A stretch of DNA of 64,000 nt. It comes from Spiroplasma endosymbiont of Panorpa germanica. GTDB taxonomy: Bacteria; Bacillota_I; Bacilli_A; Mycoplasmatales; Mycoplasmataceae. Below, piece by piece: positions 4,004 to 32,743 of the stretch; position 1 is the first letter of the stretch; each line of letters starts with the position of its first letter. The position numbers and the translations under genes are program-made. Location of the stretch: positions 868,001-932,000 of the forward strand of contig NZ_OZ026461.1 in assembly GCF_964019765.1 (NCBI RefSeq), read 5' to 3'. The notes beneath the pieces were generated by a model that worked only from the letters and a program-made list of their open reading frames with translations, was not told the DNA's origin and ran no database searches.

Positions 4004-5803
4004 CTAATCTGTATATTCTATAATAAAGTATGATGGGTAATATATTGCTGATTTCATCGTCTTTGAACCTTTCTCCAGAGCTATTACCATATTAAGATCA
4101 TCATTTTTATTGGTATAAAAATTTGTAGTTCTATCTACCGCACCGTTATAAGAAAATAGATATGTTTTTAATTCAACTCGATTTGTTGGCTTCCCTCAAT
4201 TAGTATCTCCAAAATGAGCTCGACGTTCAATTGTGGTATTTTTATCAGTATGTTGTAGGTAAGAGGGGAACTCGCCAGTATCAATCATTTCGAACTTTGA
4301 AAACAATCCTAATTCTTCCAAAAACTCATTAGCTCCTTGAAGATCAAAAAGCATTTGTTCACCACCTGGTATAAACCAATTCCATTTATTTGATTTTAAT
4401 CCTTTTTTTCAGGATCTTGGAAGAATTATAAGATGTCGCTGTTCATCAGGAGATTCTTTAAATTCTACATCTTCCATGTGATAGAATTTTTGTTGATAGT
4501 CAAATGAATCACTTATAAATTTTTCATAATAGCTTCTAGTACTACTATAGCTGGTTTTTTGACGAATAAATAAAACTCTTTCAGAAAAATCATAGGTTTG
4601 TCCCTCCATTACGAAAGACAAATTTTTTAACTCAGCTCCGTAAGAAGCAATTGTTAACTTATCTTCATCATCTTTAATTTCAAATTTTGATTTATAAGTT
4701 GATAGCAATGTTTGAATAACCCTATTATCTGCAATGTTATTTTCTAGATTGTATTGATTAATAGATCTTGAAATTCCAGAATCCTTTTTAATTTTTTCAT
4801 CTAAAAAACTTTTTTCAGCAACGTTATCTATAACCGGTCTTATTCAATCACCAGTGTCATCATCGGATGCGTTTCTTAAAAATTTATCTTTATCCTCACC
4901 GTTATAAATCATTGCTTTGTTCAAAGTAAGATTACGCTCTTCAAACTGAGCAATTCGAGCTTCAGTTTTATATCGACTTGCATTTTCTACAGTGCTAGAA
5001 TTTACAACCAAGGATAATTCGTTTGTGTTAATTTTTTGAATATTTGAATTACTTGTAGCAAATATTACCAGTTCCTGAGTTAGATCGCTTTTCAACTCTG
5101 CACTTGAACTAATTTTGTCTGCTATAGCACCTTGTTCACCTTTGTTGCTGATAAAAGAATACTTATTGGCTAATGTTTCATTAATTAATTTATCATAGCC
5201 CTCAGAAATATCTTTAGCTTTGTCAGCTAAAGATTTTGCAGCAAAAATATTCATAGTAGCTGTTGTTTCAATTTCTTGCAATCCTTTTTCGCCCGTAATT
5301 TCTTTGTAGGTAATTAAACTTGTAAGTCGAATAGCCAATGATAAATTCTTGTCTTTTTTATAAAGCTCGATTGATTTTATATCAATTCCATTTTTTAATG
5401 GGGTTGAAGAATCCATTGTTACTAAATTATAGTTAATATTGTTGCTAACTTCTTGTGCTAATTTCTGATTAATTTTCTCTGTTGGAATAATGTTGTAAAT
5501 ACCAGCACTTACCTTGCGATAATAAAAACTATTTTTATCTTGGAGATGCTCTTCATTATCCAACAATTCTTGAATCGTAAAGCCTTCCAACAATGGATCA
5601 TCTTCCGCAATTCATGCATAAGGCAGGAAAGCCTCAAACATTGCAGTTTTAAAAATAGCAGTAACTTCACCAATAAAATTATTTAAAGCTTGGTTATAGT
5701 CATATTGTTTAACATCTTTTTCTTTGGTTTTACAACTAACAGCATAAATTGGCGTGGGCACCACCATTAACGAAGCTGCAAGTATTTGTAACAATTTTTT
5801 CAT
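4004..5803 (-). CDS. Array A surface lipoprotein, copy 2
   Basis: Surface lipoprotein of 599 residues, cysteine at residue 24, read through several TGA tryptophan codons to a TAG stop. Residues 1 to ~425 are almost identical to copy 1. The block from DEDKLTIASYG to DYQQKFYHME is residue-for-residue the same. After that the sequence switches (copy 1 ...GRELKESPDD, here ...DVEFKESPDE) and stays divergent until the conserved ELG...KFEMIDTGEFPSY and HFGDT..GKPTNRVELKTY tail motifs. This pattern suggests gene conversion of the core and diversification of an exposed C-terminal face. Function unknown. Confidence 0.9.
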
Positions 5804-5831
5804 TTAAAATCTCCTATTTTACATATTAATA

Positions 5832-5860
5832 ATTATACCTTTAATGAGGCTTTATTTCAA
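5832..5860 (-). promoter_or_regulatory. Promoter of lipoprotein A2
   Basis: TTGAAA-17-TATAAT on the minus strand, identical in boxes and spacer to the promoter of copy 1. Confidence 0.85.
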
Positions 5861-5887
5861 TCTGGTTTAATTCTTAGAAAAACAAAA

Positions 5888-6230
5888 TCAGTTGTGATTT
5901 ACTTCCAATTTTTCAAATGCATGTTTCAGATATTATATGGGTAAGCAATAAATTACTTAAACTCCAGTTCCAGCAACTTTTAATCACGATGCTTTTGTTG
6001 ATTTTAGTTTTGGTTCATCCGCTGAAATTGCATTACATAAAGTTGCTTGTAACAGAGTTTCACAGTTTTCAAGACATCTAATGTTGACATCCTTTACTAA
6101 ACCATGGATAATGTTTCTCAGTAGTGTGATGTCATAACCATCCATTTAATCACATTTTGAACCAGTAGTTTCAATAAATCCTTCTGATACTTTGCTTGGA
6201 TCTTTAACTTCAATAAATAGTGGATTTGCA
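5888..6230 (-). pseudogene. PTS IIB/IIC 3'-end fragment, unit 2
   Basis: Near-identical sister of the fragment at 3607-3950, derived from the IIB/IIC genes at 8249-8700. It has internal deletions and stops and is not coding. Confidence 0.8.
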
Positions 6231-6238
6231 ACTTAATT

Positions 6239-6263
6239 AAAAAATCGACTCAAAAAGTCGATT
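6239..6263 (-). terminator. Terminator of lipoprotein A3
   Basis: AATCGACT / AGTCGATT hairpin with T-run, 22 bases past the A3 stop. Confidence 0.85.
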
Positions 6264-6284
6264 TTAGTTAATTTTTTAGAATGA

Positions 6285-8084
6285 CTAATCTGTATATTCC
6301 ACAATAAAGTATGATGGGTACTGTTTTGCTGTTTTCATTGTCTTTTTAGCACTCTCCAGAGCTATTACCATATTAAGATCATCATTTTTATTGGTATAAA
6401 AATTTGTAGTTCTATCTGCCACACCGTTATAAGAAAATAGATATGTTTTTAATTCAACTCGATTAGTCGGCTTCCCTCAATTAGTATCTCCAAAATGAGC
6501 TCGAAGTTCAATTGTACTTTTTTGAGAAGTATGTTTTATGTAAGAAGGGAACTCGCCAGTATCAATCATTTCGAACTTTGAAAACAATCCTAATTCTTCC
6601 AAAAACTCACTGGCTCCTTGAAGATCATAAAGTTTTTGTTCCTCACCAGGTTGAAAAAAATTCCATCTAGATTTTCTTATGTATCCTTTTCAGTTTCTTG
6701 GAAGAATTATAAGATGTCGCTGTTCATCAGGAGATTCTTTAAATTCTATATCTTTCATGTGATAGAATTTTTGTTGATAATCAAATGAATCACTTATAAA
6801 TTTTTCATAATAGCTTCTAGTACTACTATAGCTGGTTTTTTGACGAATAAATAAAACTCTTTCAGAAAAATCATAGGTTTGTCCCTCCATTACGAAAGAC
6901 AAATTTTTTAACTCAGCTCCGTAAGAAGCAATTGTTAACTTGTCTTCATCATCTTTAATTTCAAATTTTGATTTATAAGTTGATAGCAATGTTTGAATAA
7001 TCTTATTATCTGCAATGTTATTTTCTAGATTGTATTGATTAATAGATCTTGAAATTCCAGAATCCATTTCAATTTTTTTATCTAGAAAACTTTTTTCAGC
7101 AACGTTATCTATAACTGGTATTATTCAATCACCAGTGTCATCATTGGAAGCGTTTCTTAAAAATTGATCTTTTTCCTCACCGTCATAAATCATCGCTTTG
7201 TTCAAAGTAAGATTACGCTCTTCAAACTGAGCAATTCGAGCTTCAGTTTTATATCGACTTGCATTTTCTACAGTGCTAGAATTTACAACCGTGGTTAGTT
7301 GGTTTGTGTTAATTTCTTGGACATTTGAATTATTTGTTGCAAATGTTGCCAGTTCCTGAGTTAGGTTGCTTTTCAACTCTGCACTTGAACTAATTTTGTC
7401 TGCTATAGCACCTTGTTCACCTTTGTTGCTGATAAAAGAATACTTATTGGCTAATGTTTCATTAATTAATTTATCATAGCCCTCAGAAATATCTTTAGCT
7501 TTGTCGGCTAAAGATTTTGCAGCAAAAATATTCATAGTAGCTGTTGTTTCAATTTCTTGCAATCCTTTTTCGCCCGTAATTTCTTTGTAGGTAATTAAAC
7601 TTGTAAGTCGAATATCCACTGATAAATTCCTGTCTTTTTTGTGAAGCTCGATTGATTTTATATCAATTCCATTTTTTAATGGGGTTGAAGAATCCATTGT
7701 TACTAAATTGTAGTTAATATTATTGCTAACTTCTTGTACTAATTTTTGATTAATTTTCGCTATTGGAATAATGTTGTAAATACCAGCACTTACCTTACGA
7801 TAATAAAAACTATTTTTATCTTGAAGATTATCTTCATTATCTAACAATTCTTGAATCGTAAAGCCTTCCAACAATTGATCATCTTCTGCAATTCATGCAT
7901 AAGGTAGGAATGCCTCAAAAATTGCAGTTTTAAAAATAGCAGTAACTTCACCAATAAAATCATTTAAAGCTTGGTTATAGTCGTATTCTTTAACATCTTT
8001 TTCTTTGGTTTTACAACTAACAGCATAAATTGGCGTGGGCACCACCATTAATGAAGCTGCAAGTATTTGCAATAATTTTCTCAT
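6285..8084 (-). CDS. Array A surface lipoprotein, copy 3
   Basis: Surface lipoprotein of 599 residues, with the cysteine of the lipobox at residue 24. It lies next to the parent PTS operon and is probably the copy from which the array grew. It differs from copies 1 and 2 at scattered sites in the N-terminal half (MRKLL start, DNLQDKN, PIAKINQK) but shares the invariant central block and the RQKTSYSSTRSYY motif. Its tail is closer to copy 2. It has its own promoter, so it is not simply read from the PTS operon, which ends at a terminator between them. Confidence 0.9.
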
Positions 8085-8222: not shown

Positions 8223-8248
8223 AACCAATAAAATTAGTTGTGGTTTAC

Positions 8249-8614
8249 TCACAGTTTTTCAACCGCAGGTTTTAGAGATGATATATATGGACCATAAATT
8301 ACTTGAACTCCAGTCCCAGCAACTTTTACTCCCAACGCTTTTGTTGATTTTAGTTTTGGTTCATCCACTAAACTGGCGTCAAATACTGTTACTCGTAAAC
8401 GAGTCGCACAGTTATCAAGCAATTTAATGTTGGCATCTCCTCCCAAACCGTCAATAATGTTTCTAAGTAGTGTGATGTCATAACCATCGATTTGATCAGA
8501 TTTTGACCCACCTTTTTTAGAGGTTGTTTTTTTACCATCACTGTGTCCCATTAATTCATTTAGTTCATTATGAATAATTTCTGGGTTATCGTATTTAATG
8601 TAAATTTTAGCCAT
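8249..8614 (-). CDS. PTS system, glucose-family IIB protein
   Basis: Cytoplasmic phosphotransfer protein of 121 residues. It accepts phosphate from a IIA protein on a cysteine and passes it to the sugar bound by the neighbouring IIC. The phosphocysteine motif NCATRLRV is at residues 68-75 (C69), followed by the family's GV.V.G..VQVIYG segment. The first ~45 residues are a charged, lysine-rich lead not typical of IIB. The gene starts three bases after the IIC stop, with its ribosome-binding site inside the IIC 3' end. No IIA gene is in this operon, so a IIA encoded elsewhere must serve it. The preceding IIC carries a second IIB-like tail without the cysteine, which makes this protein the working IIB. 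Confidence 0.85.
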   Translation of the reverse strand: MAKIYIKYDNPEIIHNELNELMGHSDGKKTTSKKGGSKSDQIDGYDITLLRNIIDGLGGDANIKLLDNCATRLRVTVFDASLVDEPKLKSTKALGVKVAGTGVQVIYGPYISSLKPAVEKL

Positions 8615-8617
8615 TTT

Positions 8618-10522
8618 CTAACCCTCAACTTTCATAGCTTTTGAACCAGTAGTTTTAATAACACCTTCTGATACTTTGCTTGGATCTTTAACTTCGATGA
8701 TTAGTTCAGTTTTTGAATGATCTAAATCAATAATATTGTCTTTTCCTCCAAGTGCTTTTAATAATTTTTCAGCATTAGCTGAGTCTTTTTTAGTTCCTTT
8801 TGCAAGTGATGCTTTTAAAGCTTCAACTGCAACGTTTTCTTCACCAACTTCTTCACGACCTGGTGTTTTGTAATCTTTAGCTTTGATAATTCATCAGAAT
8901 CCGAAGAAATATGATGGTGACATGATTAGTAATCCGTAGATTGGAATTCACATTGCCCCAGTTCTACCAGCTCAACTACCGAAGATTGCTCCTCCACTAG
9001 TTCCTGTTGAGTATCCTGGGATAATTCCAAAGAAGATTCAGTCAATAAATCCAGCTGCGAATCCTTGTCCAACTGTAACATTTAATAAGTATGCCATCAT
9101 GAAACTTATTCCGGCCATAAAGGCGTCAAATAAGTATAACATTGGTGCTACGAATAAGAATGAGAATAGAATTGGTTCAGTGATTCCAGTTAAGAAACTA
9201 GTTGCGGCTGCAGAAATTAAAATTCCTGAACTTTGCTTACGGTTTTCTGGTTTTGCCATCATAATCATGGCAGCAGCTCCGAATGGATATCCATATTGCA
9301 TAAAGGCAAAACGTCCTGACATAAACATTGTTCCTACTTCGTTTGTAAAGTGGTTGAAATTAATCATTCAGCTACCAGCTTCACCAGAAATTTGGTTTGC
9401 AAAGTTAGCATTTCAAACAGTGTTCATTTCTAATGCTGCACGAGCTTCATCTGTCATTTGTCAACCGTTTCCGCCCATTCATTTCATTTGTTCAAAGAAA
9501 ATTGTGTATGCTCCAGAAGTCATTGTTCAACCTGTAATTACATTGTTTGAATCAATGATTGGAGTTAATCATTCCCCTCCAGCTGATGTATATCAGAATG
9601 GAGTATATTGTACATGGTGTAGTCCCATTGGAATTAGAAGACGTTCAGTAATACCAAAGAACATAGCAACTAGTGCTCCAGCTGTTCTAGAGAATTCTTC
9701 TTGTCCTCCAATTCCCATAAGTGAACCCATCCCTGATCCAATTAAGTACAGTAATTGTAAGAAGGCAGGTCATACGAAGAAGAATCCTAAACCTGCTGCG
9801 ATTCCAAAGAAGAAACCAGCAATTGGTACAAATTTTTCTCCACCAAAGAATCCTAAAACTCTTGGTACTTTAATATTATATGTGCGGTTGTGGATTACTG
9901 ACATCCCTCAACCAATTAAAATTCCTCCAAGAACAGATAGGTCAAGTGTTGGGGTAATTCCTAGAACGCTTTTCAACATCCCTTTGTTAGTTCCCTCACT
10001 AACCAATCCATACTTACCAGCTAATCCTCATGGGTCAAATTGAACCACTGCATCTCCGGCTGTATTTGTTGTTGGTAAGAATAGTGCCATTATTGTTGAA
10101 GACATAACTACGTATGCAACAAATGCTGAAACGGCTGCAACACCTTTAGATTGTTTTGCAAATCCAAAAGCTACCGAGGTACAAAATAGTACCCCTAAAC
10201 AACCAAAAACGATATCTCCGATTGACTTCATTATGTTAAAGAAGTTAACTGCTCCATCCCCTCAATTATTTTGTTGAGCGGCGGCTGCAAATCCTCCCCC
10301 AATTCCCAGGAATAGACCCGCGATTGGAAGAACTGCAATCGGAAAAACGATTACTCTGGCTAAATTTTGTAATTTTGAAAAACTTGCTCCCTTAAATTTG
10401 TTTCAATTTTTTCCAAAATTAGAATTAGCAAAAGCTTCTTTTTTTTCAGCTTTTTTGGCAATTTTGTCCTCTTTTGAGAGGCTTTTATCGTTTTCTAGTG
10501 TGACGATTTTATCGTTTGCCAT
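8618..10522 (-). CDS. PTS system, glucose-family IIC with a degenerate IIB tail
   Basis: Membrane permease of 634 residues that transports and phosphorylates a hexose or related sugar. After a charged N-terminus come about ten membrane segments. Family landmarks are the ARVIVFPIAVLPIAGLFLG opening, the GLHH loop (GLHHVQYTPFWY), and FLTGITEPILFSFLFVAP. The last ~70 residues fold-match a IIB domain (LLKALGGKDNIIDLDHSKTELIIEVKD), but where IIB has CxTRLR this protein has HSKTEL, so it cannot be phosphorylated there. The start at 10522 has AGGAG seven bases upstream. The substrate is not deducible; glucose or GlcNAc are the likely choices. Confidence 0.85.
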
Positions 10523-11261: not shown

Positions 11262-11621
11262 TTATTTTGCTAAAGATTTTTTAGCAGTTTCAATAATTGC
11301 CTCGAATTGTTTTGGTTCGTTAATTGCTAATTCTGATAGCATTTTACGATTTACCTCAATTCCAGCCAATTTAAGACCATTCATAAATTTTGAATAGCTC
11401 ATCCCGTGAGGACGCACTGCAGCATTAATCCTTACGATTCATAAACTTCTAAAGTCACGTTTACGTAATTTACGCCCGACAAAGGCATAGGCCATAGAAC
11501 GAACTACTTGTTCATGTGCTTTTTTGTAACTTGATTTTTTTGTACCGTAGTAACCTTTGGCACGCTTAATTCAACGTTTTCTTCTTGCTCTGGTTACTTT
11601 ACCAAATTTAACTCTTGCCAT
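11262..11621 (-). CDS. rplT: 50S ribosomal protein L20
   Basis: L20 binds 23S rRNA and is needed for early assembly of the large subunit. The 119 residues match the family length and character: [19 protein letters not shown] at the basic N-terminus, then [30 protein letters not shown] and the C-terminal LELAIN-like region ([14 protein letters not shown]). It is the last gene of the infC-rpmI-rplT operon and starts 17 bases after rpmI. In other bacteria L20 represses this operon through the leader mRNA. Confidence 0.97.
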
Positions 11622-11637
11622 ATAATTTCGCTCCTAC

Positions 11638-11832
11638 CTATCCTTGTAATAAACCTTTTAAACGTTTCATATCTGTTGAATGAACAAATATTACTTTTTT
11701 AAGGTGTCTTTTTTGTTTTGTTGATTTGTTTTGTGCTAAGTGTGAACAATAAGCTTGACCACGTTTTCATTTTCCAGCAGCATTTTTTCTTACGCGTTTT
11801 GCTAGAGAACTTTTTGTTTTCATTTTTGGCAT
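11638..11832 (-). CDS. rpmI: 50S ribosomal protein L35
   Basis: Small basic large-subunit protein of 64 residues, the usual length. It begins MPKMKTKSSLAKRVRKNAAGK and ends MKRLKGLLQG. It lies between infC and rplT in the conserved order, with AGGAGG before its start. Confidence 0.97.
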
Positions 11833-11854
11833 AAATAAACTCCTCCTAATTTGA

Positions 11855-12388
11855 TTAGCCTTTTTTCGGCACTACATAGACATCTAAGAATCTAGCTGTT
11901 AGTTTGGGTTCTTTTTCTACCTTACAAACATCGTCAATAATTGCTAAGAAAGCATTCAAAGTTTTTTGACCAAATTCTTGATGTACTATTTCTCTTCCTT
12001 TAAATTTTAGAGAAATTTTAACTCTATCTCCATTTGAAAGAAATTCGCGAGCTTTTTTAGCTTTGGTTTCTAAATCATGTTGTCCAATTCCTACAGTTAA
12101 ACGAATTTCTTTGTTTTCTGTTCTCACTTGATTTTTCTTGTTTTCTTTTAGCTTACGCTTTTGCTCATATTTAAACTTTCCGTAATCTAAAATTTTTGCA
12201 ATCGCCGTGAAATTATCTTGTTGACTAACTTGCATTAAGTCTAAGCCCTGTTCCTCAGCCATTTTGATTGCTTCCATCTTTGGAATTGGTCCAATTTTGT
12301 TTCCATCATTATCGATGATTAAAACCATTTTTGCTCTGATCTCACGATTGACAAAATCCGACTTTACGTCCTTTTTGATATCTGCCAT
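11855..12388 (-). CDS. infC: Translation initiation factor IF-3
   Basis: Binds the 30S subunit, prevents premature joining of 50S and checks the start codon. It has 177 residues, with an N-terminal domain containing NREIRAKMVLIIDNDG and MEAIKMAEEQGLDLMQVS. A lysine-rich linker (KRKLKENKKNQ) and a C-terminal domain beginning KEIRLTVGIGQHDLETK follow. All are standard for the family, and length is normal. The ATG at 12386-12388 has AGGAGG upstream. It heads the ribosomal operon. Confidence 0.97.
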   Translation of the reverse strand: MADIKKDVKSDFVNREIRAKMVLIIDNDGNKIGPIPKMEAIKMAEEQGLDLMQVSQQDNFTAIAKILDYGKFKYEQKRKLKENKKNQVRTENKEIRLTVGIGQHDLETKAKKAREFLSNGDRVKISLKFKGREIVHQEFGQKTLNAFLAIIDDVCKVEKEPKLTARFLDVYVVPKKG

Positions 12389-13193: not shown

Positions 13194-13309
13194 TTTAATA
13201 CTCCCTTCAAAGCTTTGCGCCTTCAGATATATTAACTCAGAACTACTAATTATCAAGACTTTAAGAAGTTTTTGTAATTTTTTAAGGTTTTTAATTATGA
13301 ATAGTGTAT

Positions 13310-14017
13310 TTATTCAAATCTTTTTATGTCATCAACTAAAGGGTCTTCACGTTCTAGGCTTCTCTTCATGTTATTTTTTTCTAAAAAATTCAGGTAATCT
13401 AAAAGTTTCTCATTTAACTCATTTTGACTTTTTTTGACTTTTTTGTCATCTGGATTATTTGAAATATCATATTTTAAATCCCTGATTAATTGTTCAAATC
13501 TATACTGTTCTAAACGCAGATTGAACATTTTAGTCTTATGTTCATCACTGTATTTTTTTTCCGGAATTTTGGTTACTCCTTCAAAATAATCTAAATCAAT
13601 ATGTTTACATCCAACATGGTGGTATCCAGCCGCAATTGCTTCTTTCATTGTGGGAGCTTGGGAATGTTCATCAGCAATAATAATAACCGTATTTTCCCAT
13701 GGTCGACAAAGAGCACATGGATCTTCTTCTTCTCGAACATAAACAACTTTTGAAAGTCTTAATGATTGTTTTTTACCAAATCAATTGTAAACTCCCATGT
13801 AGGGTTCGTTTTGCTTATCTTTAATTTTCTCTTCTTTTTGTTTTTCTAAAAGTTCTTGGCGAACTTCCTTGCGCTTGGTTATTTTGCCCCAAGGAACTAT
13901 CATAAACAATAGAAGAACAAAGGCTATAATTATTAAAATAATTCATCATGGTAAGTTATTTATTTCGCTTCCATTAGGTTTTGTAGCATTAATGTTTTGA
14001 TTAATTATTGTGTTCAT
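13310..14017 (-). CDS. Membrane-anchored protein with phage minor-capsid-like domain
   Basis: Protein of 235 residues. Residues 24-43 are one strong membrane segment (WWIILIIIAFVLLLFMIVPW), followed by a charged coiled stretch to ~70. Residues 101-147 hold CALCRPW, then AIAAGYHHVGCKH and YFEGV. This C-x2-C ... H-x2-C-x-H ... YxxG pattern, and the QYRFEQLIRDLKY helix after it, resemble the C-terminal part of tailed-phage minor capsid / head-morphogenesis proteins (C-x2-CxxW, GxxHPNCRH, YxPG, QR..ER.IR). No other phage genes are nearby. It is the last gene of a three-gene operon and overlaps the preceding stop by 17 bases. Decayed copies lie at 16786 and 19716. The actual role is unknown. Confidence 0.7.
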
Positions 14018-14210
14018 TTAAAACCTCGTAGTATTTTTGAATTAAATCGATGTTGACTTGCTGCTGGCGATCACATTTCGCACATTTAAAAACACCAATT
14101 TTATCATTTTGAATTGATTGATCTGAATTAATTAAGAACTTTTGGTAGTCTCAACACTTTTTGCAAAATAAATATATAAAACTGCTTTCTGATACTAATT
14201 CTAATTTCAT
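14001..14210 (-). CDS. Small zinc-ribbon-like protein
   Basis: Cytoplasmic protein of 69 residues with two CxxC knuckles, CKKC near 17-20 and CAKC near 43-46, the layout of a zinc ribbon. It begins MKLELVSESSFIYLF after a GAGGG ribosome-binding site. It overlaps the capsid-like membrane gene, so the two are translationally coupled. Decayed copies follow the same order in array B. Confidence 0.7.
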
Positions 14211-14224
14211 ATTTTTCCCTCTCA

Positions 14225-14497
14225 TTAATTTGAAATGTAGTAACTAACCCCCATTCCAAACATAAAAATTCCTGCTGCTATTGATAAAAAAATCATAAAA
14301 ATAAAGAAATAATGCTGCCAAAAACTAAAGATTTTGTATCTTCCTGATTCTGTTGTGAAGTCTGCTTTTTCAAATTTACGCTTTACTTTTCATTTTCTAT
14401 AGATAAAAATAAAACCAATTCCTAAAATAATAGCTAAAAAACTAAAACCAATCAATAAATTGCTTGTTAGTTGTGAAATTTCTCCCGATAGCAACAT
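14225..14497 (-). CDS. Small membrane protein, first gene of capsid-like operon
   Basis: Protein of 90 residues with two membrane helices (LLIGFSFLAIILGIGFIFI and HYFFIFMIFLSIAAGIFMF) joined by a basic loop of ~30 residues. The start is supported by AAAAGGAG. It ends 15 bases before the zinc-ribbon gene. Not recognised as any known family. Confidence 0.7.
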
Positions 14498-14645
14498 ACC
14501 AAAATCTCCTTTTTAATATTATAACCGATTAATTAAGATACCACTAATTAAATAGATTATTTGACTCTAGTAAATAAAATTAAGGTTAATATTTTAAGAT
14601 AATTACACCTGAGGCCAAAATTAATAATTAATTGACTGAACAAAT

Positions 14646-14683
14646 AAAAAACAACCATAACAAATAATGTTGTGGTTGTTTTT
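14646..14683. terminator. Terminator after lipoprotein B1
   Basis: A long inverted repeat, AAAAACAACCATAACA and TGTTGTGGTTGTTTTT, with T-runs on both sides. It serves lipoprotein B1 on the minus strand and recurs at the end of each array B unit. Confidence 0.85.
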
Positions 14684-14748
14684 GTATTATGTTTAATATC
14701 TTGACCAATTTCAAAATAAAATAATAGTTTTATTTTTGTTAATTTATT

Positions 14749-16485
14749 TTAAATAAATTTTCAAGGATTTGGTTTTTCGAGATTTTGTGTTTTGGCAATA
14801 TCATATCTATAACCAAAATTAATTCCCATCCCCTGTTGTGCATATCCATAGCTGCGTGAGAAAAATTGAAAGTAAATATCTGGAAAAAAGTATTCCAATT
14901 CCCTATCATAGAAATAGACATAACCCTCTTCATTAAAGACTGTTTTTGAAATACGAGTGCTTCCAAAACCGAGTTTCATTTCTAATGTTAAATTTAATTT
15001 TTGTCTTATTTCCTCAGACTCAGGATTGGCGTCTAATAAATCTTGAAAGTAATCATAACCACTCAAAACTTGTAAAGGCTCAAATTCGTTTCAGCTTTCA
15101 GGTTTATTAAGGAAAAATGTTAATTCGGGATTTTGTTCCTCGGTTTTTTCATTAATATTATAAAATTTTTGTGCGAAGTTTAAAGAATCTAAATAAAAGT
15201 TTCGTGCTAATTCCTTTGTATTTTCAAAAGTTTTTAATTGCTGCCTCACAGCAATTGTCATATCAGATAGCTCAAAATTCTCACCATTATATTCCACTTT
15301 ACTATTTTTAACAGATGTTTTTAGTAAGGCGATTGTATTCTGGTCTTTGTCCATATCTAAAAGAAAATGCGACTGCTGTTTTTCTAAAGTAGATTTTAAA
15401 TTTTTTTCGTTATTAAAATGAAAATCTAATACGAATGGATTTAAATCTATTGCCATGTCAGGATAAACCTTGAGACCTTCTTCTAAACCGGGTATTAATG
15501 AAATTGAAAAACTACGAACAAATGAACTATCCTTTTCTACTAGGCCATCTAATAGATCATCAATTTTATCTTGTTGACCCATTAGAGCTTGTCTAACCGT
15601 TTCAATATGATTTAAACCTTGACCTCAAGTTCACTTATTATTTGGAAATTGATATGATGAAATAACTGCCGAATTTGTGGCTGTAGTTAATGTTGCAGAT
15701 CCCAAACTTGCAATTCCCTCCACACTTTCAACAGCCTCTTTTATAATTTCATTAGCTTGTTGTTTAAGCGAGAAGTCTTCATCAATTGCAAGGGCAGTTT
15801 CCTCTATGTTACCTTTATCGCTTTTGAATATAAAATTATTAGAATTTTCCTCATTATTTATAGCGTCAGCGTATTTATTATTAGCTTCTTTAAGAATTTC
15901 TGCTGTTTTTTTCTCTACAAAAATAGTCATTTGCGCTGTGGATTTTATTGGTTCAAACTCCTGTTGTTCGGACTGATTTTTATATAAAATTTTTGAATCA
16001 ATTTCTACGCTAAGTGTTACAGCGTTATTTAGAGGTTTTGGGATTATTTCAATTTTAGAAATTTGATATCCACCTTGCAAGGGATTTTGGTTATTATAAA
16101 CCATCTTTTTGTAGTTAATATTTTGAACTACTTGGCTATTTACTTCACTTAATATTTTATCTCAGTTAATTATTGCTCTAATTTGAGTGTTAAGATCTTT
16201 GAACTCTTCACTATCGTTTTTAACCACACCCTCAATACTATTAAACTTTTCAACATTTCAACCTTCAATGGGAGAATCCTCTTCGCTTATAAAAATAAAT
16301 TTACTGAAATCCTCTGCAATATTTTTTTGAAAAATTTCTCTAATAATATCAATCATTTGATTTTTATTTTGTTCATAATCATATTCGTCATCGATTTCTC
16401 TTGGTTTCTTTTGACAAGCAACAACGCTCATGGGGGTAGAAACCGTAATAGTTGCGACTCCCAATATGCTTAATAATTTTTTCAT
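14749..16485 (-). CDS. Array B surface lipoprotein, copy 1
   Basis: Surface lipoprotein of 578 residues, signal MKKLLSILGVATITVSTPMS with cysteine 24, function unknown. Features in order: acidic DDEYDYEQN after the anchor, NPLQGGYQISKIEI near 130, FKSDKGNIEET, MDKDQNTIALLK near 380, and VRQQLKTFENTKELARNFY, the family version of the motif shared by all large lipoproteins here. The C-terminus contains SGYDYFQDLLDANPESEE and a short GYRYDIAK tail. TGA codons are read as tryptophan at four positions. Confidence 0.9.
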
Positions 16486-16514
16486 TTTTCCGCTCCTTAT
16501 ATAAATATAATATT

Positions 16515-16543
16515 ATTTTATATGCTTATAAATGTTATTGCAA
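16515..16543 (-). promoter_or_regulatory. Promoter of lipoprotein B1
   Basis: TTGCAA, 17 bases, TAAAAT on the minus strand. The same boxes occur before B2 and before the unrelated-array lipoprotein at 43496. Confidence 0.75.
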
Positions 16544-16589
16544 TGGAAAATTTTTTTTATTTAAAAACTATTAAAGTCCAGAATCAGCA

Positions 16590-16785
16590 GTTTTTTTTAG
16601 TATTATTTAATCTTTTTAAACTGCCATCTAGTTTTTGGGCCAATAAAATTATATTTCTTTTCTTCATCCTTAAAGTTATCATTCAAAATAGTATGGTACT
16701 ATCCTTTGCAATGCGATTCATTATCATCAATAATAAAAATATGATCTATATTGTAACTTGATTTTTATTTACCCGTAATAGCATT
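16590..16785 (-). pseudogene. mupG 3'-end fragment
   Basis: Matches the last ~65 codons of the intact mupG at 22468-22680 (the segment covering the GPNTRYQFKK C-terminus and the NRGDIVIIN region), with a deletion and stops. It is a passenger of the array B duplication. Confidence 0.8.
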
Positions 16786-17430
16786 TTCTTTAATTGCTGG
16801 TGCTTGATAATGTTGGTCAGCGATAATAAAATAGTATTTTTCCGCGGCCCACAAAAAACAAATAGGCAGTCTTCTTCTTGAGCATAAATAACTTTTGACA
16901 ATCTTATTGGTTGCGTTTTGCTAAACCAATTATAAGCCTCATTTTTCTTATCTTAAATGTTGTCTTCCTTATTTTTTCTAAAATTTTTTGTGAATTTGCT
17001 TGCGATTGGTTATTTTACCCGAAGGAACTACCACCAATAAAAGAATAGAAAAGGCTATAATTATTAAAAAAATATCAGTTTTGTCTCCTTAATTGCTTGA
17101 TTTGAATTTATTAAGAAATCTTAGTCGTTTTAGCAAAATAAATATATAAAACTACTTTTCTACAATAATTCTAATTACATATTTTTAGTTCTCATTAATT
17201 TGATATGTAGTAACCTTCTCCAATTCCCAAAATAAAAAACGATGTTGCCAGAAACTAAATACTTCGTAGCTCTCTTATTAAGTTGTAAAATTTGCTTTTA
17301 GAAAATTACGCTTACTCTTCATTTACTATATATAAAAATAATGCTAATTGATAAAATAACAACCAAGAAACTAAAACTAATTAATAAATTACTTGTTAAT
17401 TTTGGGATTTCTACCGCTAGCAAAATGCAA
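16786..17430 (-). pseudogene. Decayed capsid-like operon, array unit 1
   Basis: 16786-17090 matches the capsid-like gene at 13629-13950 (codons from about 130 back to 25). 17095-17185 matches the zinc-ribbon gene, and 17190-17430 the two-helix membrane gene, in the same order. Multiple stops and frameshifts are present. Confidence 0.8.
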
Positions 17431-17568
17431 AAATCATCTTTTTAATTTTATATGTGATTAATTAAGATACTGCTCACTAAATATATTGTTTATAATTTAT
17501 AAATAAAATATTTAATTTTATTAATGACTTAGGAAAAATTAGGGATTTTTGCGAGAACAGCAGAATAC

Positions 17569-17605
17569 AAAAACAACCATAACAAATAATGTTGTGGTTG
17601 TTTTT
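17569..17605. terminator. Terminator after lipoprotein B2
   Basis: Same AAAAACAACCATAACA / TGTTGTGGTTGTTTTT hairpin as at 14646. Confidence 0.85.
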
Positions 17606-17670
17606 GTATTATGTTTAATATCTTGACCAATTTCAAAATAAAATAATGTTTTGATTTTTTTTAATTTATT

Positions 17671-19416
17671 TTAAATAAATTTTCAAGGATTCGGATTTTC
17701 GAGATTCTGTTTTTTGGCAATATCATATCTATAACCAAAATTAATTCCCATCCCCTCTTGTTCATTTCCATAACTGTGTGAGAAAAATAGAAAGTAAATA
17801 TCTGGAGAAAAGCTTTCCAGTACTTTATCATAGAAATATACATAACCCTCTTCGTTAAAGACTGTTTTTGAAATGCGTGTCGATGAAAAACCGGTTCTCA
17901 TTTGTACTGTTAAATTTAATTTTTGTCTTATTTCCTCAGACTCAGGATTGGCGTCTAATAAATCTTGAAAGTAATCATAACCACTCAAAACTTGTAAAGG
18001 CTCAAATTCGTTTCAGCTCTCAGGTTTATTTAGGAAAAATGTTAATTCGGGATTTTGTTCTTCGGTTTTTTCATTAATATTATAAAATTTTTGTGCAAAG
18101 TTTAAAGAATCTAAATAAAAGTTTCGTGCTAATTCCTTTGTGTTTTCAAAAGTTTTTAATTGCTGCCTCACAGCAATTGTCATATTAGATAGCTCAAAAT
18201 TCTCACCATTATATTCCACTTTACTATTTTTAACAGATGTTTTTAGTAAGGCGATTGTATTCTGGTCTTTGTCCATATCTAAAAGAAAATGCGACTGCTG
18301 ATATTCTAAAGTAGATTTAAAATTTTTTTCGTAATTAAAATGACGATCTAATATGAATGGATTTAAATCTCTTGACATGTCCGGATAAACCTTAAGACCT
18401 TCTTCTAAACCTGGTATTTCTGAAATTCTAAAACCACCATTATAAAAAAATGAAGGATTACTTTCTACTAAGCCATCTAACAGCTCATCAATTTTATCTT
18501 GATTACCCATTAGAGCTTGTCTAACCGTTTCCAAAGGGCCGCCACCTTTACCTCAAGTTCAATTAATTTGTGGATATTGATATGATGAAATGATTGCCGA
18601 ACTTTTTGATGATGTATCCAATGTTGCAGATCCCAAACTTGTGATTCCCTCCACACTTTCAACAGCCTCTTTTATAATTTCGTTAGCTTTTTGTCTAAGT
18701 GAAAGGTCTTCATCAATTGCAAGGGCAGTTTCCTTTATGTTACCTTTATCGCTTTTGAATATAAAATTATTAGAATTTTCTTCATTATTTATAGCGTCAG
18801 CGTATTTATTATTAGCTTCTTTAAGAATTTCTGCTGTTTTTTTCTCTTCAAAAATAGTCATTTTCGCTGTGGATTTTATAGGTTCAAACTCTTGTTGTTC
18901 GGACTGATTTTTATATAAAATTGATGAATCAATTTCTACGCTAATTGTTACAGCGTTATTTTCAGGTTTTGGGAATATTTCAATTTTAGAAATTTGATAT
19001 CCACCTTGCAAGGGATTTTGGTTATTATAAATCATGCTTTTGTAGTTAATATTTTGAACTACTTGGCTATTTACTTCACTTAATATTTTATCTCAGTTAA
19101 TTATTGCTCTAATTTGAGTGTTAAGATCTTTGAACTCTTCACTATCGTTTTTAACCACACCCTCAATACTATTAAACTTTTCAACACTTCATCCTTCAAT
19201 GGGAGAATCCTCTTCACTTATAAAAATGAATTTGCTAAAATCCTCTGCAATATTTTTTTGAAAAATTTCTCTAATAATATCAATCATTTGATTTTTATTT
19301 TGTTCATAATCATATTCGTCATCGATTTCTCTTAGTTTCTTTTGACAAGCAACAACGCTCATGGGGGTAGAAACCGTAATAGTTGCGACTCCCAATATGC
19401 TTAATAATTTTTTCAT
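17671..19416 (-). CDS. Array B surface lipoprotein, copy 2
   Basis: Surface lipoprotein of 581 residues, cysteine 24. It shares the central block from FLLDMDKDQNTIALLK to NKPES with copies 1 and 3 almost without change. The segment just before it differs strongly (VESNPSFFYNGGFRISEIPG here, VEKDSSFVRSFSISLIPG in copy 1), as do the patch after NLTVQMRTGF and the last 40 residues. The pattern of fixed core and variable patches is what surface exposure plus gene conversion would give. Function unknown. Confidence 0.9.
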
Positions 19417-19445
19417 TTTTCCCCTCCTTATATAAATATAATATT

Positions 19446-19474
19446 ATTTTATATCTTTATAAATATTATTGCAA
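19446..19474 (-). promoter_or_regulatory. Promoter of lipoprotein B2
   Basis: TTGCAA-17-TAAAAT on the minus strand, as for copy 1. Confidence 0.75.
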
Positions 19475-19524
19475 TGGAAAAATTTTTTTATTTAAAAACT
19501 ATTAAAGTCCAGAATCAGCAGTTT

Positions 19525-19715
19525 TTTTTAGTATTATTTAATCTTTTTAAACTGCCATCTAGTTTTTGGGCCAATAAAATTATATTTCTTTTCTTCATCC
19601 TTAAAGTTATCGTTCAAAATAGTATGGTACTATCCCTTGCAATGCGATTCATTATCATCAATAATAAAAATATGATCTATATTGTAACTTGATTTTTATT
19701 TACCCGTAATAGCAT
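19525..19715 (-). pseudogene. mupG 3'-end fragment
   Basis: Sister of the fragment at 16590-16785 and derived from mupG at 22468-22680. It carries the same internal deletion, so the deletion predates the second duplication. Confidence 0.8.
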
Positions 19716-20370
19716 TTTCTTTAATTGCTGGTGCTTGATAATGTTGGTCAGCAATAATAAAATAGTATTTTTCCGCGGCCCACAAAAAACAAATAGACAG
19801 TCTTCTTCTTGAGCATAAAGAACTTTTGACAATCTTAATGGTTGCGTTTTGCTAAACCAATTATAAGCCTCATTTTTCTTATCTTAAATGTTGTCTTCCT
19901 TGTTTTTTCTAAAATTTTTTGTGAATTTGCTTGCGATTGGTTATTTTACCCGAAGGAACTAACACCAATAAAAGAAGAGAAAAGGCTATAATTATTAAAA
20001 AAACATCAGTTTTGTCTCCTTAATTGCTTGATTTGAATTTATTAAGAAATCTTAGTCGTTTCAGTAGTTTTAGCAAAATAAATATATAAAACTACTTTTC
20101 TACAATAATTCTAATTACATATTTTTAGTTCTCATTAATTTGATTTGTAGTGACCTTCTCCAATTCTAAAAATAAAAAACGATGTTGCCAGAAACTAAAT
20201 AATACGTAGCTCTCTTATTAATTTGTAAAATTCGCTTTTAGAAAATTACGCTTACTCTTCATTTTCTATATATAGAAATAATGCTAATTGATAAAATAAC
20301 AACCAAGAAACTAAAACTAATTAATAAATTACTTGTTAATTTCGGGATTTCTCCCACTAGCAAAATGCAA
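19716..20370 (-). pseudogene. Decayed capsid-like operon, array unit 2
   Basis: Near-identical sister of 16786-17430, covering relics of the capsid-like gene, the zinc-ribbon gene and the two-helix membrane gene. A nine-base insertion near 20060 distinguishes it. Not coding. Confidence 0.8.
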
Positions 20371-20509
20371 AAATCATCTTTTTAATTTTATATGCGATTA
20401 ATTAAGATACTGCTAACTAAATATATTGTTTATAAGTCATTAATAAAATATTTAATTTTATTAATGACTTAGGAAAAATTTAGGGATTTTTGCGAGAACA
20501 GCTGAATAC

Positions 20510-20546
20510 AAAAACAACCATAACAAATAATGTTGTGGTTGTTTTT
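20510..20546. terminator. Terminator after lipoprotein B3
   Basis: Third copy of the AAAAACAACCATAACA / TGTTGTGGTTGTTTTT hairpin. Confidence 0.85.
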
Positions 20547-20612
20547 GTATTATGTTTAATATCTTGACCAATTTCAAAATAAAATAATAGTTTTTATTTT
20601 TGTTAATTTATT

Positions 20613-22352
20613 TTAAATGAATTTTCAAGGATTTGGTTTTTCGAGATTTTGCTCCTCGGCAATATCATATCTATAACCAAAACTAATTCCCATACCCTTT
20701 TGTGTATTTCCATAACTGACTGAGAAGAATTGAAAGAAAAGATCTGGGGTTGCGTATTTCAATACATCATTATAGAAATAGACGTAACCCTCTTCGTTAA
20801 AGACTGTTTTTGCAATTAAATTTGCACCTCTAGCATATTGCATTAGTACTGTTAAATTTAATTTTTGTCTTATTTCCTCAGACTCAGGATTGGCGTCTAA
20901 TAAATTTTGAAAGTAATCATAACCACTCAAAACTTGTAAGGGTTCAAATTCGTTTCAGCTTTCAGGTTTATTCAGGTAAAATGTTAATTCGGGATTTTGT
21001 TCCTCGGTTTTTTCATTAATATTATAAAATTTTTGTACGAAGTTTATAGAATCTAAATAAAAGTTTCGTGCTAATTCCTTTGTGTTTTCAAAAGTTTTTA
21101 ATTGCTGCCTAACAGCAATTGTCATATCAGATAGCTCAAAACTCTCACCATTATATTCCACTTTACTATTTTTAACAGATGTTTTTAGTAAGGCGATTGT
21201 ATTCTGGTCTTTGTCCATATCTAAAAGAAAATGCGACTGCTGTTTTTCTAAAGTAGATTTTAAATTTTTTTCGTCATCAAGTCTAAAATCTAATATGAAT
21301 GGATTTAAATCTATTGCCATGTCCGGATAAACTAAGAGACCTTCTTCTAAACCGGGTATTCATGAAATTGGAAAACTACGAACAAATTCACTATTCTTTT
21401 CTACTAAGGCATCTAGCAGCTCATCAATTTTATTTTGTTTACCCATTAGAGCTTGTCTAACCGTTTTCAAAGAGCTGTCATTTCGACCTCAAAATCAATC
21501 ATTATTTGCACTTTGATATGATGAAATGATTGCCGAACTTTTTGATAATGTAGTTAATGTTGCAGATCCCAAACTTGTGATTCCCTCCACACTTTCAACA
21601 GCCTCTTTTATAATTTCGTTAGCTTGTTGTTTAAGCGAAAGGTCTTCATCAATTGCAAGGGAAGTTTCCTTTATGTCACCTTTATCGCTTTTGAATATAA
21701 AATTATTAGAATTTTCTTCATTATTTATAGCGTCAGCGTATTTATTATTAGCTTCTTGAAGAATTTCGGCTGTTTTTTTCTGTTCAAAAATAGTCATTTG
21801 CGCTGTGGATTTTATTGGTTCAAACTCTTGTTGTTCGGACTGATTTTTATATAAAATTGTTGAATCAATTTCTACGCTAAGTGTTACAGCGTTATTTAGA
21901 GGTTTTGGGATTATTTCAATTTTAGAAATTTGATATCCCCCTTGCAAGGGATTTTGGTTATTATAAACCATCTTTTTGTAGTTAATATTTTGAACTACTT
22001 GGCTATTTACTTCACTTAATATTTTATCTCAGTTAATTATTGCTCTAATTTGAGTGTTAAGATCTTTGAACTCCTCACTATCGTTTTTAACCACACCAGG
22101 AATATTATTAAACTTTTCAACATTTCAACCTTCAATTGGAGAATCCTCTTCGCTTATAAAAATAAATTTACTGAAATCCTCTGCAATATTTTTTTGAAAA
22201 ATTTCTCTAATAATATCAATCATTTGATTTTTATTTTGTTCATAATCATATTCGTCATCGATTTCTCTTGGTTTCTTTTGACAAGCAACAACGCTCATGG
22301 GTGTAGAAACCGTAATAGTTGCGACTCCCAATATGCTTAATAATTTTTTCAT
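20613..22352 (-). CDS. Array B surface lipoprotein, copy 3
   Basis: Surface lipoprotein of 579 residues, cysteine 24, the copy next to the intact mupG. The fixed core and the VRQQLKTFENTKELARNFY motif are as in copies 1 and 2. Variable patches include MQYARGANLIAKTVF and YNDVLKYATPDLFFQFF. Its promoter (TTGTAA-17-TATAAT) differs from that of the other two copies, so expression level may differ. Function unknown. Confidence 0.9.
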
Positions 22353-22381
22353 TTTTCCCCTCCTTATATAAATATAATATT

Positions 22382-22467: not shown

Positions 22468-23568
22468 TTATTTTGTTTTTTTAAACTGATATCTAGTATT
22501 TGGGCCGATAAAATTCAAGATAAAGAGTTGTTCTGGTTTAATTGAGCCAATAAAATTATATTTCTTTTCATCATCTAAAAAGTTATCCTTTAAGATAATA
22601 TGACACTCACCTTTATAATGTGAATCTTTATCATTTATAATAACAATATCACCCCTATTGTAAATTGATTTTTGCTTACCCACAAGAATATCTTCATTTT
22701 TATAATAAACCCTAGTCATTGTATAGCGAATAAACATTTCTGTAATATCCATTCGTCTAAAATGTAAATGGCTAAATAGGATTTTTTCTTCAGCTAAAGA
22801 TAATTTATTTTCTAGTTTTAAATCAAAAGTAATTTCGTCACGATCTATTTGAGAAACCAATTTTAATTCTTCTTCACTGGCATAAGCATTTCCAAAGAAG
22901 ACAACGTCAATTTCATCACAATATAATAAAATCTTAGCTTGGCTAACTACATCATAAAATCTCATGAACTCTAAAGTTGGAAACTCTTTATTTCCTAAAG
23001 CTGGTCCTTGAGTTCCAAAATGACTACCAATAAAGGCAGCGGTGCTTAATCGATGTTTTAAATATTTTTTATTAGCTTCTGAGAAAAAATCATAAGGGAT
23101 GGCAGTATTTTTTTGAGGATAAAAATTATGACAACCACTTAAACGATTTTTAATTGGTTTAAAATCCATTACATTGGTAATTAAATTATCATTATTTGAC
23201 ATATTCAATTGCACATCAATTCCATAGCGATTATGGGTTAATTCTGCAATCTCACTTGGCAAACTTGGTGAATCTAATCTAATACAATCAATCCCCATTT
23301 CCAAGCATTTTTTGGGGTCTTTTAAATCAATTCCTAGACGTTCCAATGAAACATTTTCAAAATCAGCAATTGTATAAAAGCCAATACTTTTAGCATACTT
23401 TAAGGACTTGTTGATTTTTTGAATTAACTCAATTGGTTGATTATTTACATGAAAGTAACTTGTAAACACTTGAGTATAACCCAGAGATTTAGCTAAGTCC
23501 AAATAAGCTTTGTCCTTTTCAAAAGTTGATTGCTCTGGATAGATTGATATTCCTAATTGTTTTTTCAT
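22468..23568 (-). CDS. mupG: MupG-family (DUF871) 6-phospho-glycosidase
   Basis: Cytoplasmic hydrolase of 366 residues. Characterised MupG cleaves MurNAc-6-phosphate-GlcNAc into MurNAc-6P and GlcNAc. The family signature is clear: MKKQLGISIYPEQSTF at the start of a TIM-barrel-like N-terminal half, IRLDSP near 115, LNMSNND, GCHNFYPQKNTAIP near 160, GPALGNKEFPTLE, then a smaller C-terminal domain with HFRRMDITEMFIRYTMTR and YNRGDIVIINDKDSHYKGE. Length is normal and it contains no TGA codon. It follows a IIB-IIA-IIC operon with a hairpin between, so its substrate should be the 6-phospho-disaccharide made by that PTS. The substrate could also be another phosphorylated disaccharide. Confidence 0.8.
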   Translation of the reverse strand: MKKQLGISIYPEQSTFEKDKAYLDLAKSLGYTQVFTSYFHVNNQPIELIQKINKSLKYAKSIGFYTIADFENVSLERLGIDLKDPKKCLEMGIDCIRLDSPSLPSEIAELTHNRYGIDVQLNMSNNDNLITNVMDFKPIKNRLSGCHNFYPQKNTAIPYDFFSEANKKYLKHRLSTAAFIGSHFGTQGPALGNKEFPTLEFMRFYDVVSQAKILLYCDEIDVVFFGNAYASEEELKLVSQIDRDEITFDLKLENKLSLAEEKILFSHLHFRRMDITEMFIRYTMTRVYYKNEDILVGKQKSIYNRGDIVIINDKDSHYKGECHIILKDNFLDDEKKYNFIGSIKPEQLFILNFIGPNTRYQFKKTK

Positions 23569-30102: not shown

Positions 30103-30999
30103 CTAAATTAAACCTCTTAAACTTTTGTGGTTTTTTTCAAATAGTAATTGAGCTTCTTGATAACTTACTTGATTTGTAATCATTATAGAGGCAAATTTGC
30201 AATCCATATCAGCCTCTTTTAAAATTGCTAAAGTTTTTTCGTTGTCACTTGTTTGGGTAAGTTCGTTAACTATTTTAATGCATCTAGCAACTAATTTTTC
30301 ATTGGTAGCTTTAACATCAATCATTAGATTATCATATACTTTACCACTTTTAATCATTAAAGTTGTTGAAATCATATTTAACACCATTTTTGTAGCAGTT
30401 CCTGATTTCATTCTTGTACTTCCAGTAACAACTTCGGGTCCTGAATTTACTTCAATAACCCCATCACTGTATTTTCTAAATTCTGAATCAGTTGTCATAC
30501 ATAATCCAACACTAAAAGCATTGATTGACTTAGCATATTTTAAAGCCCCTATAACATAGGGTGTACGACCTGAAGCTCCAATGCCAATTACTGTATCATT
30601 GCTTGTTAGATTTATATTCTTCAAATCCTGAACTGCTAATTCTTCAGAATCTTCAGCTCCTTCAATTGGAATACGCAAAGCCAAATCTCCCCCGGCAATA
30701 TAGCCAAAGAATTTATCTGCCACTCCATATGTGGGTAACATTTCACTAGCGTCTAAAACCCCAATTCTTCCCGAAGAACCAGCTCCCAAATAAATTAAGC
30801 GGCCATTATTTTGGAACTTAATAAAAATCTGATCAACAATTTTACCAATTGTTGGGATTTGTTCTTTTACTGCTTGAGAAATTTTGCTATCCTCTTGATT
30901 AATTAAGGTTAGAATTTCATTAGTAGTTTTCAAATCTAAATCATGGGTATTTTCGTTAACCGACTCTGTTAATATTTTTTGTAAATTTAATTCCTTCAT
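30103..30999 (-). CDS. murQ: N-acetylmuramic acid 6-phosphate etherase
   Basis: Cleaves the lactyl ether of MurNAc-6-phosphate to give GlcNAc-6-phosphate and D-lactate in the cytoplasm. The 298 residues are full length. The SIS fold is visible as LIYLGAGSSGRIGVLDASE near 68-86, with IEGAEDSEELA near 112-122, GIGASGRTPYV, and the active-site stretch GPEVVTGSTRMKSGTATK near 187-204. A C-terminal three-helix domain follows. It lies 16 bases after murP. The presence of this enzyme in a wall-less lineage implies use of foreign peptidoglycan sugars. Confidence 0.95.
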   Translation of the reverse strand: MKELNLQKILTESVNENTHDLDLKTTNEILTLINQEDSKISQAVKEQIPTIGKIVDQIFIKFQNNGRLIYLGAGSSGRIGVLDASEMLPTYGVADKFFGYIAGGDLALRIPIEGAEDSEELAVQDLKNINLTSNDTVIGIGASGRTPYVIGALKYAKSINAFSVGLCMTTDSEFRKYSDGVIEVNSGPEVVTGSTRMKSGTATKMVLNMISTTLMIKSGKVYDNLMIDVKATNEKLVARCIKIVNELTQTSDNEKTLAILKEADMDCKFASIMITNQVSYQEAQLLFEKNHKSLRGLI

Positions 31000-31015
31000 A
31001 TTAAAACTCTTTCTA

Positions 31016-32743
31016 TTAAATTTTTAAACTAGCTAAGTTTTGTCTCTCACTTAGCGGAGTTTTTTGATACCAAACAATTCAAGTAACAAATATTCCAATG
31101 ACTGTTATGAAAGCAAATCCATAACCAATTTTTACCATAAGACTAACATCACTATTTTTCTTAAAGATTGTTTTCATTTTGTTTGAACCGTTTAAAGCAA
31201 TTTTTGAATAACTAAACCAGCTAAACGTTGCTCCTAAAATATAGGTTAACAACAATCCTGATAAGTAAGTTAGAATCCCAGCTACAACATTACCATCAAT
31301 TGTTGTCATCATAATTGCAGCAGTTAATCCACCAGGTCCAGTGGCGGCATTCATTCCAACGTTTATCCCAGCTCAATAACTCATAGCTCCCATATAGAAA
31401 CCTCCGATTGAGGCTGTTAAACAAGCAACAATAAATGGTCGCACTCTTGGTAAAATAATTCCATATAATAACGGTTCTCCAATTCCTAAAAATCCAGGAA
31501 TGATTGCACCAGTTATTTGTTTTCTTAAAGTGGATCCTTTTTTAGCCATTAATCAAAGTCCAATACTTACACCAACCATCGAAGTTCCACCCATACACAT
31601 GATTGGGAATAAACCGTTTACTCCAGTTTCTTCTATTAAAGCAAAATATACTGGTAAAAATCCTTGATGTACTCCAAAAGTTAGAGCAATCAAGAAGATA
31701 CCCGCTAAGAAAGCAGCTCCAAAGGGATTTTGATAAATATTAATAAACAATCACGAAATCGCTGTGAATAAATATCCTGCTAAAGGAATAATTAACAAGA
31801 AATTAATCAATACCATTAAAAATATTACAATGATCGGAGTTAAGATTGTATCAATAGCTCCAGGCATAAAACGACGAAAGCCTTTTTCAATGTTAACAGT
31901 AACTCCTGCTGAAATCATGGCTCCAATTAATCCAGCATGAGCTGCCCCAAGAATAGGAACTCCTGCGCTAGTATAGTTAACAAATCCAACGGTAAATCAA
32001 TTTGACTCGATATTAGATTTGGCAATTAACATTCCTAAGAAGTTATAACTATCTTCTTGTTCTACAAATATCCCAACAATTGTTGGTCCAACAAATGAAC
32101 AATACATGGCAGCCATTAAAGCTGCAATTCCTGGATTGCCACCTCACTCTTCACCAATTCTTCAACCAACAGCAATAATAAATACATTAGTTAAAACAGT
32201 TAATGAAATACTCATAACTTGTCATCAACTTTTTAAAGTTTCATAACCTAACCAGTTTGGTCCGGTCTTATCAGGAAGTAAAGGAACTTGTGATAACATG
32301 ATTCCTGCAATTCCTGAAAGAATTCCTGCACCAATAAAAGCTGGTATTAAAGGGGTGAAAACTTTTGATATTTTACTTAAAAAGTTTTGAACTTTGTTTT
32401 TATTACGGTAGTTTCCTTTATTCTCATCACTAACTTCTTGAGCTGTTTTAATTTCAAAGGCATCTAGATTTTCATCTACACTTTTTTGAGATTTTAAATT
32501 TACGATCTTAGAAAATTCTAAACTGACCTTATTAACAAACCCTGGCCCTAAAATTATTTGCAGCTGATCTCCAGCAACTACTACCCCTAAAACTGCGGGC
32601 ATAGTTTTTAAAACTTCTAAATCAACACCGTCTTTGTTTTTGACATTAACTCTAAGCCTTGTCATACAGTTGGTAAATGAATTTATGTTTTCTTTGCCGA
32701 TGATGTCACCAATTTGCTGGGCAACACTTTTAGCATTTTTCAT
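31016..32743 (-). CDS. murP: PTS system IIBC, MurNAc/sucrose-like family (MurP)
   Basis: Permease of 575 residues. Residues 1-85 are a IIB domain with phosphocysteine C26 (NCMTRLRV). Then comes a linker, then a IIC domain from ~125 (KVFTPLIPAFIGAGILSGIAG) with about ten helices. IIB before IIC is the domain order of MurP, TreP and SacP. The first TGA tryptophan falls after LKS. There is no IIA domain, so a crr-type IIA encoded elsewhere is needed. Its position directly before murQ supports MurNAc as substrate, which would arrive as MurNAc-6P. A -10 box TATACT lies near 32770-32775. Confidence 0.85.

Follow-up and report, generated by a model that had tools for sequence, protein, structure and literature searches.

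A membrane-anchored phage minor-capsid domain linked to a sugar PTS permease in wall-less bacteria

Introduction

What is a domain of phage heads doing on a membrane anchor in the chromosome of a wall-less bacterium, among genes that are not those of a phage? In phages a minor capsid gene of the MuF2 type sits directly downstream of the portal gene, and the MuF domain has been described as one of unknown function (PMC5576092). SPP1 gp7, of the MuF1 type, belongs to the same superfamily (PMC5576092); it binds the portal and is packed inside the head (PMC6316719). Cells have probably taken over a phage structural protein in the case of the encapsulins (PMC8987985). Encapsulins, however, form shells and are related to the major capsid protein, whereas the protein described here, F1, carries a minor capsid domain and is placed at the membrane. 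In the open-access literature we found neither the operon nor a takeover of a MuF or minor capsid protein described.

The locus lies in a genome of 1.05 Mb from the Spiroplasma family, a placement based on named relatives, and was analysed within a stretch of 64,000 nucleotides (G000:C1:868001-932000), referred to below as the window.

Results

F1 carries the C-terminal domain of phage minor capsid proteins behind a membrane helix

Under code 4 the minus strand holds three real, overlapping open reading frames, F1, F2 and F3 (Table 1). A sequence-only reading of the locus had described F1 as a 235-residue protein, and the reading frames, hydropathy and an AlphaFold2 model bear out its layout: a single N-terminal membrane helix, C101-x2-C104, H134-x2-C137-x-H139, YFEG and then a QYRFEQLIRDLKY helix. 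In the model, which has a mean pLDDT of 80, residues 1-90 are the membrane helix and a linker, and the helices at 158-187 and 191-214 reach pLDDT values above 90. The 20 residues behind the membrane helix have a net charge of +2 to +9 in each of 20 family members (20/20), compared with about 0 ahead of it; by the positive-inside rule, the helix would be oriented N-out/C-in and the domain would be cytoplasmic.

Table 1. Features of the F1 locus and its surroundings (window positions)
Feature	Position	Strand	Evidence
infC-rpmI-rplT, downstream neighbours common to relatives	11262..12388	-	synteny
F1 (235 aa), MuF2 protein (C-terminal part of Phage_min_cap2) with a membrane anchor	13310..14017	-	PF06152, phrog_581, hhalign, Foldseek
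F1 C-terminal helical hairpin, residues 158-214; also within the phage domain	13376..13546	-	AlphaFold2, alignment with phage proteins
F1 C/H domain, residues 90-155: C101, C104, H134, C137, H139	13553..13750	-	invariant columns, 20 relatives
F1 membrane helix, residues ~24-42 (hydrophobic to ~44)	13892..13948	-	hydropathy 3.0 at residue 26
F2 (74 aa), cytosolic and zinc-ribbon-like; constant partner to F1	14001..14225	-	four Cys, AlphaFold2
F3, two-helix membrane protein, 90 aa	14225..14497	-	two hydrophobic segments; precedes PTS permease in relatives
Decayed tandem copy: mupG 3' end, F1, F2 and F3 remnants	16618..17426	-	tblastn, internal stops
Another decayed tandem copy with the same parts (mupG 3' end; F1, F2 and F3 remnants)	19549..20366	-	tblastn, internal stops
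mupG (6-phospho-N-acetylmuramidase), upstream neighbour	22468..23568	-	PF19200 + PF05913, synteny
MurNAc-type PTS permease with a MurQ-like SIS protein; amino-sugar salvage surroundings	30103..32743	-	

The proposal that F1 has the C-terminal domain of phage minor capsid proteins but lacks the portal-binding part held in Pfam, PHROGs, tblastn, HMM-HMM and fold comparisons alike. The score of F1 against PF06152 (Phage_min_cap2) is 31.1 bits, where the curated cut-off is 26.3; the match covers profile positions 221-353 of 366, and the N-terminal half of the profile (1-220) is missing. The same profile recognises 19 of 20 family members at E <= 0.01, and the PHROGs family phrog_581, ‘minor head protein’, matches F1 at 2.4e-8. 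By tblastn against phages, residues 90-224 find Listeria minor capsid proteins at 1e-5; the counterpart in phage A006 is gp4, whose gene comes after the terminase genes and gp3 and ahead of the gene for the major head protein. Aligned by hhalign with eight phage minor capsid proteins, the F1 family gives a probability of 99 and an E of 4e-18 over 140 columns. The alignment spans the C/H region, the helical hairpin and a terminal L-x-R-x3-R-E segment, and it is therefore the whole domain that is shared, not a motif. The predicted structure is likewise related to the phage domain: searched with Foldseek against BFVD, the model finds a best E of 4.7e-8, and the named significant viral matches are all minor capsid or capsid maturation proteins. 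It is virtually certain that F1 is the C-terminal domain of a phage MuF2 minor capsid protein. In the PDB, neither F1 nor the phage profile found a meaningful match by sequence or fold.

F1 differs from the phage proteins of PF06152/MuF2, such as gp4 of A006, in what surrounds the domain. The CxxC-HxxCxH-YFEG-hairpin domain runs to the C-terminal end in the same way, but where the phage proteins have a portal-side N-terminal half F1 has a membrane helix, and the gene, rather than standing beside portal, terminase and capsid genes, has been kept long-term in host genomes. Similarly, set beside SPP1 gp7 by published descriptions of the latter, F1 has no portal partner here. The gene is not directly 3' of a phage portal gene; its neighbours are F2, PTS genes, mupG and infC-rpmI-rplT, and no phage head or tail gene was recognisable among those tested, as the sequence-only reading had stated. 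Its view that the domain was recruited to the membrane within a non-phage operon is supported by these neighbours together with the profile and fold comparison.

F1 is the sole PF06152 match in its genome, and every match above the cut-off in the 320 genomes of the order is an F1 gene. In a tree with sampled phages the F1 sequences occupy one side of a branch with support of 100/99, which fits a single takeover of the phage domain behind the whole family. Viral contigs scanned with the F1 alignment yielded no relative; genome contigs yielded no match to the single F1 protein and three loci to the alignment.

A candidate metal site

C101, C104, H134 and C137 are invariant across the members of the F1 family and the aligned phage proteins. 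The fifth residue, H139, is a histidine in all of these except the two copies from a distant genome (G293), where it is a cysteine. A His-to-Cys swap is typical of metal ligands, and together with the conserved C/H residues it makes metal binding by F1 plausible. A conserved set of candidate zinc ligands is present in F1 (with His or Cys at 139) and, as four cysteines, in F2. Metal binding had been suggested before as one possible task of the domain; the ligand-like residues keep this suggestion plausible, and the binding itself, presumably of zinc, we infer from them.

F2 is the constant partner of F1

The two coupled genes encode, as had been described, a zinc-ribbon-like protein (F2) and a two-helix membrane protein (F3). 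In the window F2 overlaps F1 by 17 nt and F3 overlaps F2 by 1 nt; among relatives the F2-F1 spacing ranges from a 23 nt overlap to an 8 nt gap. F2 has two C-x2-C pairs, of which all four cysteines are invariant, as is Y65-Y66-x2-L69, and its AlphaFold2 model (pLDDT 74) is ribbon-like, with two beta hairpins and a helix. Searches of the PDB with F2 by sequence and by fold gave only weak, mixed matches. F3 resembles the MPN207a family of PTS accessory proteins (NF046005) in being a small two-helix membrane protein that lies, in relatives, by a glucose-family PTS permease, but its scores, 21.2 bits in the window and 33.2 in the best relative, stay under the curated cut-off of 45, and F1 and F2 are unrelated to MPN207a.

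F1 is present in 26 of the 60 genomes of the family, where it forms one clade. It is also found in two copies in G293, which belongs to another family, and in a shortened form in G056; 31 of the 320 genomes of the order match F1, and those beyond the 26, G056 and G293 are weak partial matches. F2 occurs in exactly the same 26 family genomes and in G293, and one extra match to it, in G182, is weak and contains stop codons. F1 is intact in 25 of the 26 family genomes that hold it, and its dN/dS is near 0.1-0.2 in genus g9 and also in the genus of the window, in which dS is almost saturated. We therefore regard it as close to certain that F1 has a host function that is not that of a phage.

In most relatives F2 and F1 follow a PTS permease

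Most relatives have the genes arranged as F3 - PTS permease - F2 - F1, frequently with mupG ahead and infC-rpmI-rplT behind. F2 and F1 are always paired, and in this arrangement the permease lies between F3 and F2. In 20 of 27 intact F2-F1 pairs the permease is 11-106 nt upstream of F2. Its best model is the N-acetylglucosamine IIBC model TIGR01998; since the score is below the equivalog cut-off, the substrate is likely to be an amino sugar or glucose.

Counted at >= 52% identity over most of its length, with split genes joined and genomes classed by hand, the permease was found in 25 of the 26 genomes with F1 and in 8 of the 34 without it (Fisher p = 7e-9, a value that ignores shared ancestry). 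The one exception with F1 and no permease, G006, is an 85% complete assembly in which the contig starts just before F2. In genus g9, 17 genomes hold both F1 and the permease and three hold neither (17/17 versus 0/3, p = 9e-4). In G046 permease, F2 and F1 are all broken, the permease by the loss of about 108 residues and the other two by frameshifts. In G293 one F1 copy lies in an operon of the order PTS - AgaS-type isomerase - EIIA (crr) - nagA - F2 - F1 - small two-helix protein, and the other lies outside any PTS operon amid unrelated genes.

The association is not absolute. Within the genus of the window the permease has left this locus for G000:C1:463174-464952 while F3-F2-F1 remain near mupG, which is why the sequence-only reading missed the PTS context. 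In G028 the permease no longer adjoins F2-F1, and F2-F1 are still intact; between permease and F2-F1 lies an insertion of about 15 kb (L123:9803 onwards, and L038 up to 9506) with a transposase and phage-like genes, including a weak match to a major head protein. Conversely, eight genomes hold the permease without F1 or F2, and so the permease does not need them. In relatives of this kind it stands beside ptsI-crr or beside nagA- or nagB-type genes, nagB being confirmed and nagA read from sequence only. Taken together, a functional tie between F1 and the PTS is probable, and we hold it with good confidence.

The surroundings of the operon

Including that of the window, 20 of the 28 F1-bearing loci compared have infC-rpmI-rplT within 10 kb (<=10 kb) of F1, and in many relatives mupG is directly upstream of F3. 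The window itself contains a tandem unit (13300-22600, minus strand) of mupG 3' end - lipoprotein - F3-F2-F1, of which two repeats share about 91% identity with each other; a single F3-F2-F1 set is intact and two are decayed, and the lipoproteins of the repeats stay open.

Further upstream (22468-40000, minus strand) is an amino-sugar salvage region, in a bacterium that is wall-less, with three mupG-like genes, a MurQ-like SIS protein, a MurNAc-type PTS, an RpiR-type regulator and a lactose/cellobiose-type PTS. Another local amplification (1729-8084, minus strand), which lies downstream of a glucose-family PTS permease with EIIB (8234-10522), consists of three tandem proteins of 597-599 aa among EIIB fragments; one of the three, when tested, had no NCBIfam or Pfam match.

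Discussion

An anchor in place of the lost half, a constant zinc-ribbon partner and a PTS followed through evolution lead us to the reading of F1-F2 as a membrane-tethered accessory of an N-acetylglucosamine-type PTS permease, with F1 a domesticated MuF2 C-terminal domain; we give it somewhat better than even chances. According to this proposal the phage domain would have been joined to one membrane helix to give F1, and F1 would act with the zinc ribbon F2 at the cytoplasmic face of the membrane on the permease (EIICB). The metal-stabilised domain and helical hairpin of F1, parts in phages of a head protein that sits on the portal ring, could dock on the permease or on its phospho-donor, and the docking could tune the assembly, the stability or the phosphotransfer of the permease. 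Both the contact and the direction of any effect of F1 are presumptive, and for direct modulation of the permease by F1 the chances appear evenly balanced. Since the permease is kept in related genomes that lack F1 and F2, the pair would be a modulator and not a required subunit. A bolder version, in which a domain of phage head assembly was turned into a dedicated accessory subunit of the permease that depends on zinc and docks perhaps as its ancestor docked in the phage head, is tentative and rather doubtful.

Alternatively, F1-F2 may be a general membrane-side adaptor, for example in proteolysis or protein quality control, which is co-inherited with the PTS and does not act on the permease. 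That F2-F1 persist apart from the permease, both in G028 and in the genus of the window, and that one G293 copy lies amid unrelated genes, agrees with such an adaptor. It does not, however, sit well with the joint absence of F1 and permease in three g9 genomes, with their joint breakage in G046 or with the independent placement of F2-F1 in an amino-sugar PTS operon of another family (G293), and we consider it unlikely, although it is the strongest competitor to a permease accessory.

Phage interference, which had been put forward tentatively for the domain earlier, found no support. F1 might block incoming tailed phages, for example as a membrane-bound mimic of their minor capsid protein or as the guard of a PTS permease that serves as receptor, and it is after all a genuine phage head domain at the membrane. 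Nevertheless, it has no N-terminal half (profile 1-220), it is kept under purifying selection beside metabolic genes, and conservation, co-occurrence and joint decay tie it to the amino-sugar PTS. No defence family matches it beyond the membrane helix; the sole PADLOC match is a weak one to ZorA (E 0.0015), confined to residues 24-71, which include that helix. A role in phage interference is therefore improbable. Still less probable is a likeness to phage proteins that comes from a common small metal-binding motif and not from phage ancestry; the search for a solved structure of the domain found none to compare, but the 140 aligned columns include the hairpin and the L-x-R-x3-R-E tail, and the named fold matches were without exception of the minor-capsid type. 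Lastly, that F1 is a decaying prophage remnant with no host function, as its phage origin, the decayed extra copies next to it and the phage-like insertion in the G028 operon might suggest, is contradicted by purifying selection, by intact genes in all but one of the family genomes that hold it and by the fixed partner F2, and is scarcely credible.

As a host protein in genomes of about 1 Mb that has the MuF domain only, F1 offers this domain isolated from phage assembly, in a form whose function is testable. If it is indeed a permease accessory, this would be a new kind of takeover, from minor capsid protein to sugar transport, and would add two unannotated accessory genes to amino-sugar uptake in wall-less bacteria.

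Two other loci have parts of F1. The shortened F1 of G056 (L050:9498-9866) is a 122-aa protein with the anchor and CxxC...HxGCxH, without the hairpin and without F2, and lies near ptsI-crr, an aldolase, a SIS isomerase and a PTS. In G051 (L118:11231-12592) an F1-like anchor is fused to a SIS-type sugar-isomerase-like protein which adjoins aldolase and PTS genes; this 453-aa protein was rejected as a relative of F1 since the match covers the membrane anchor only. The F1-type anchor may be a reusable module of PTS loci.
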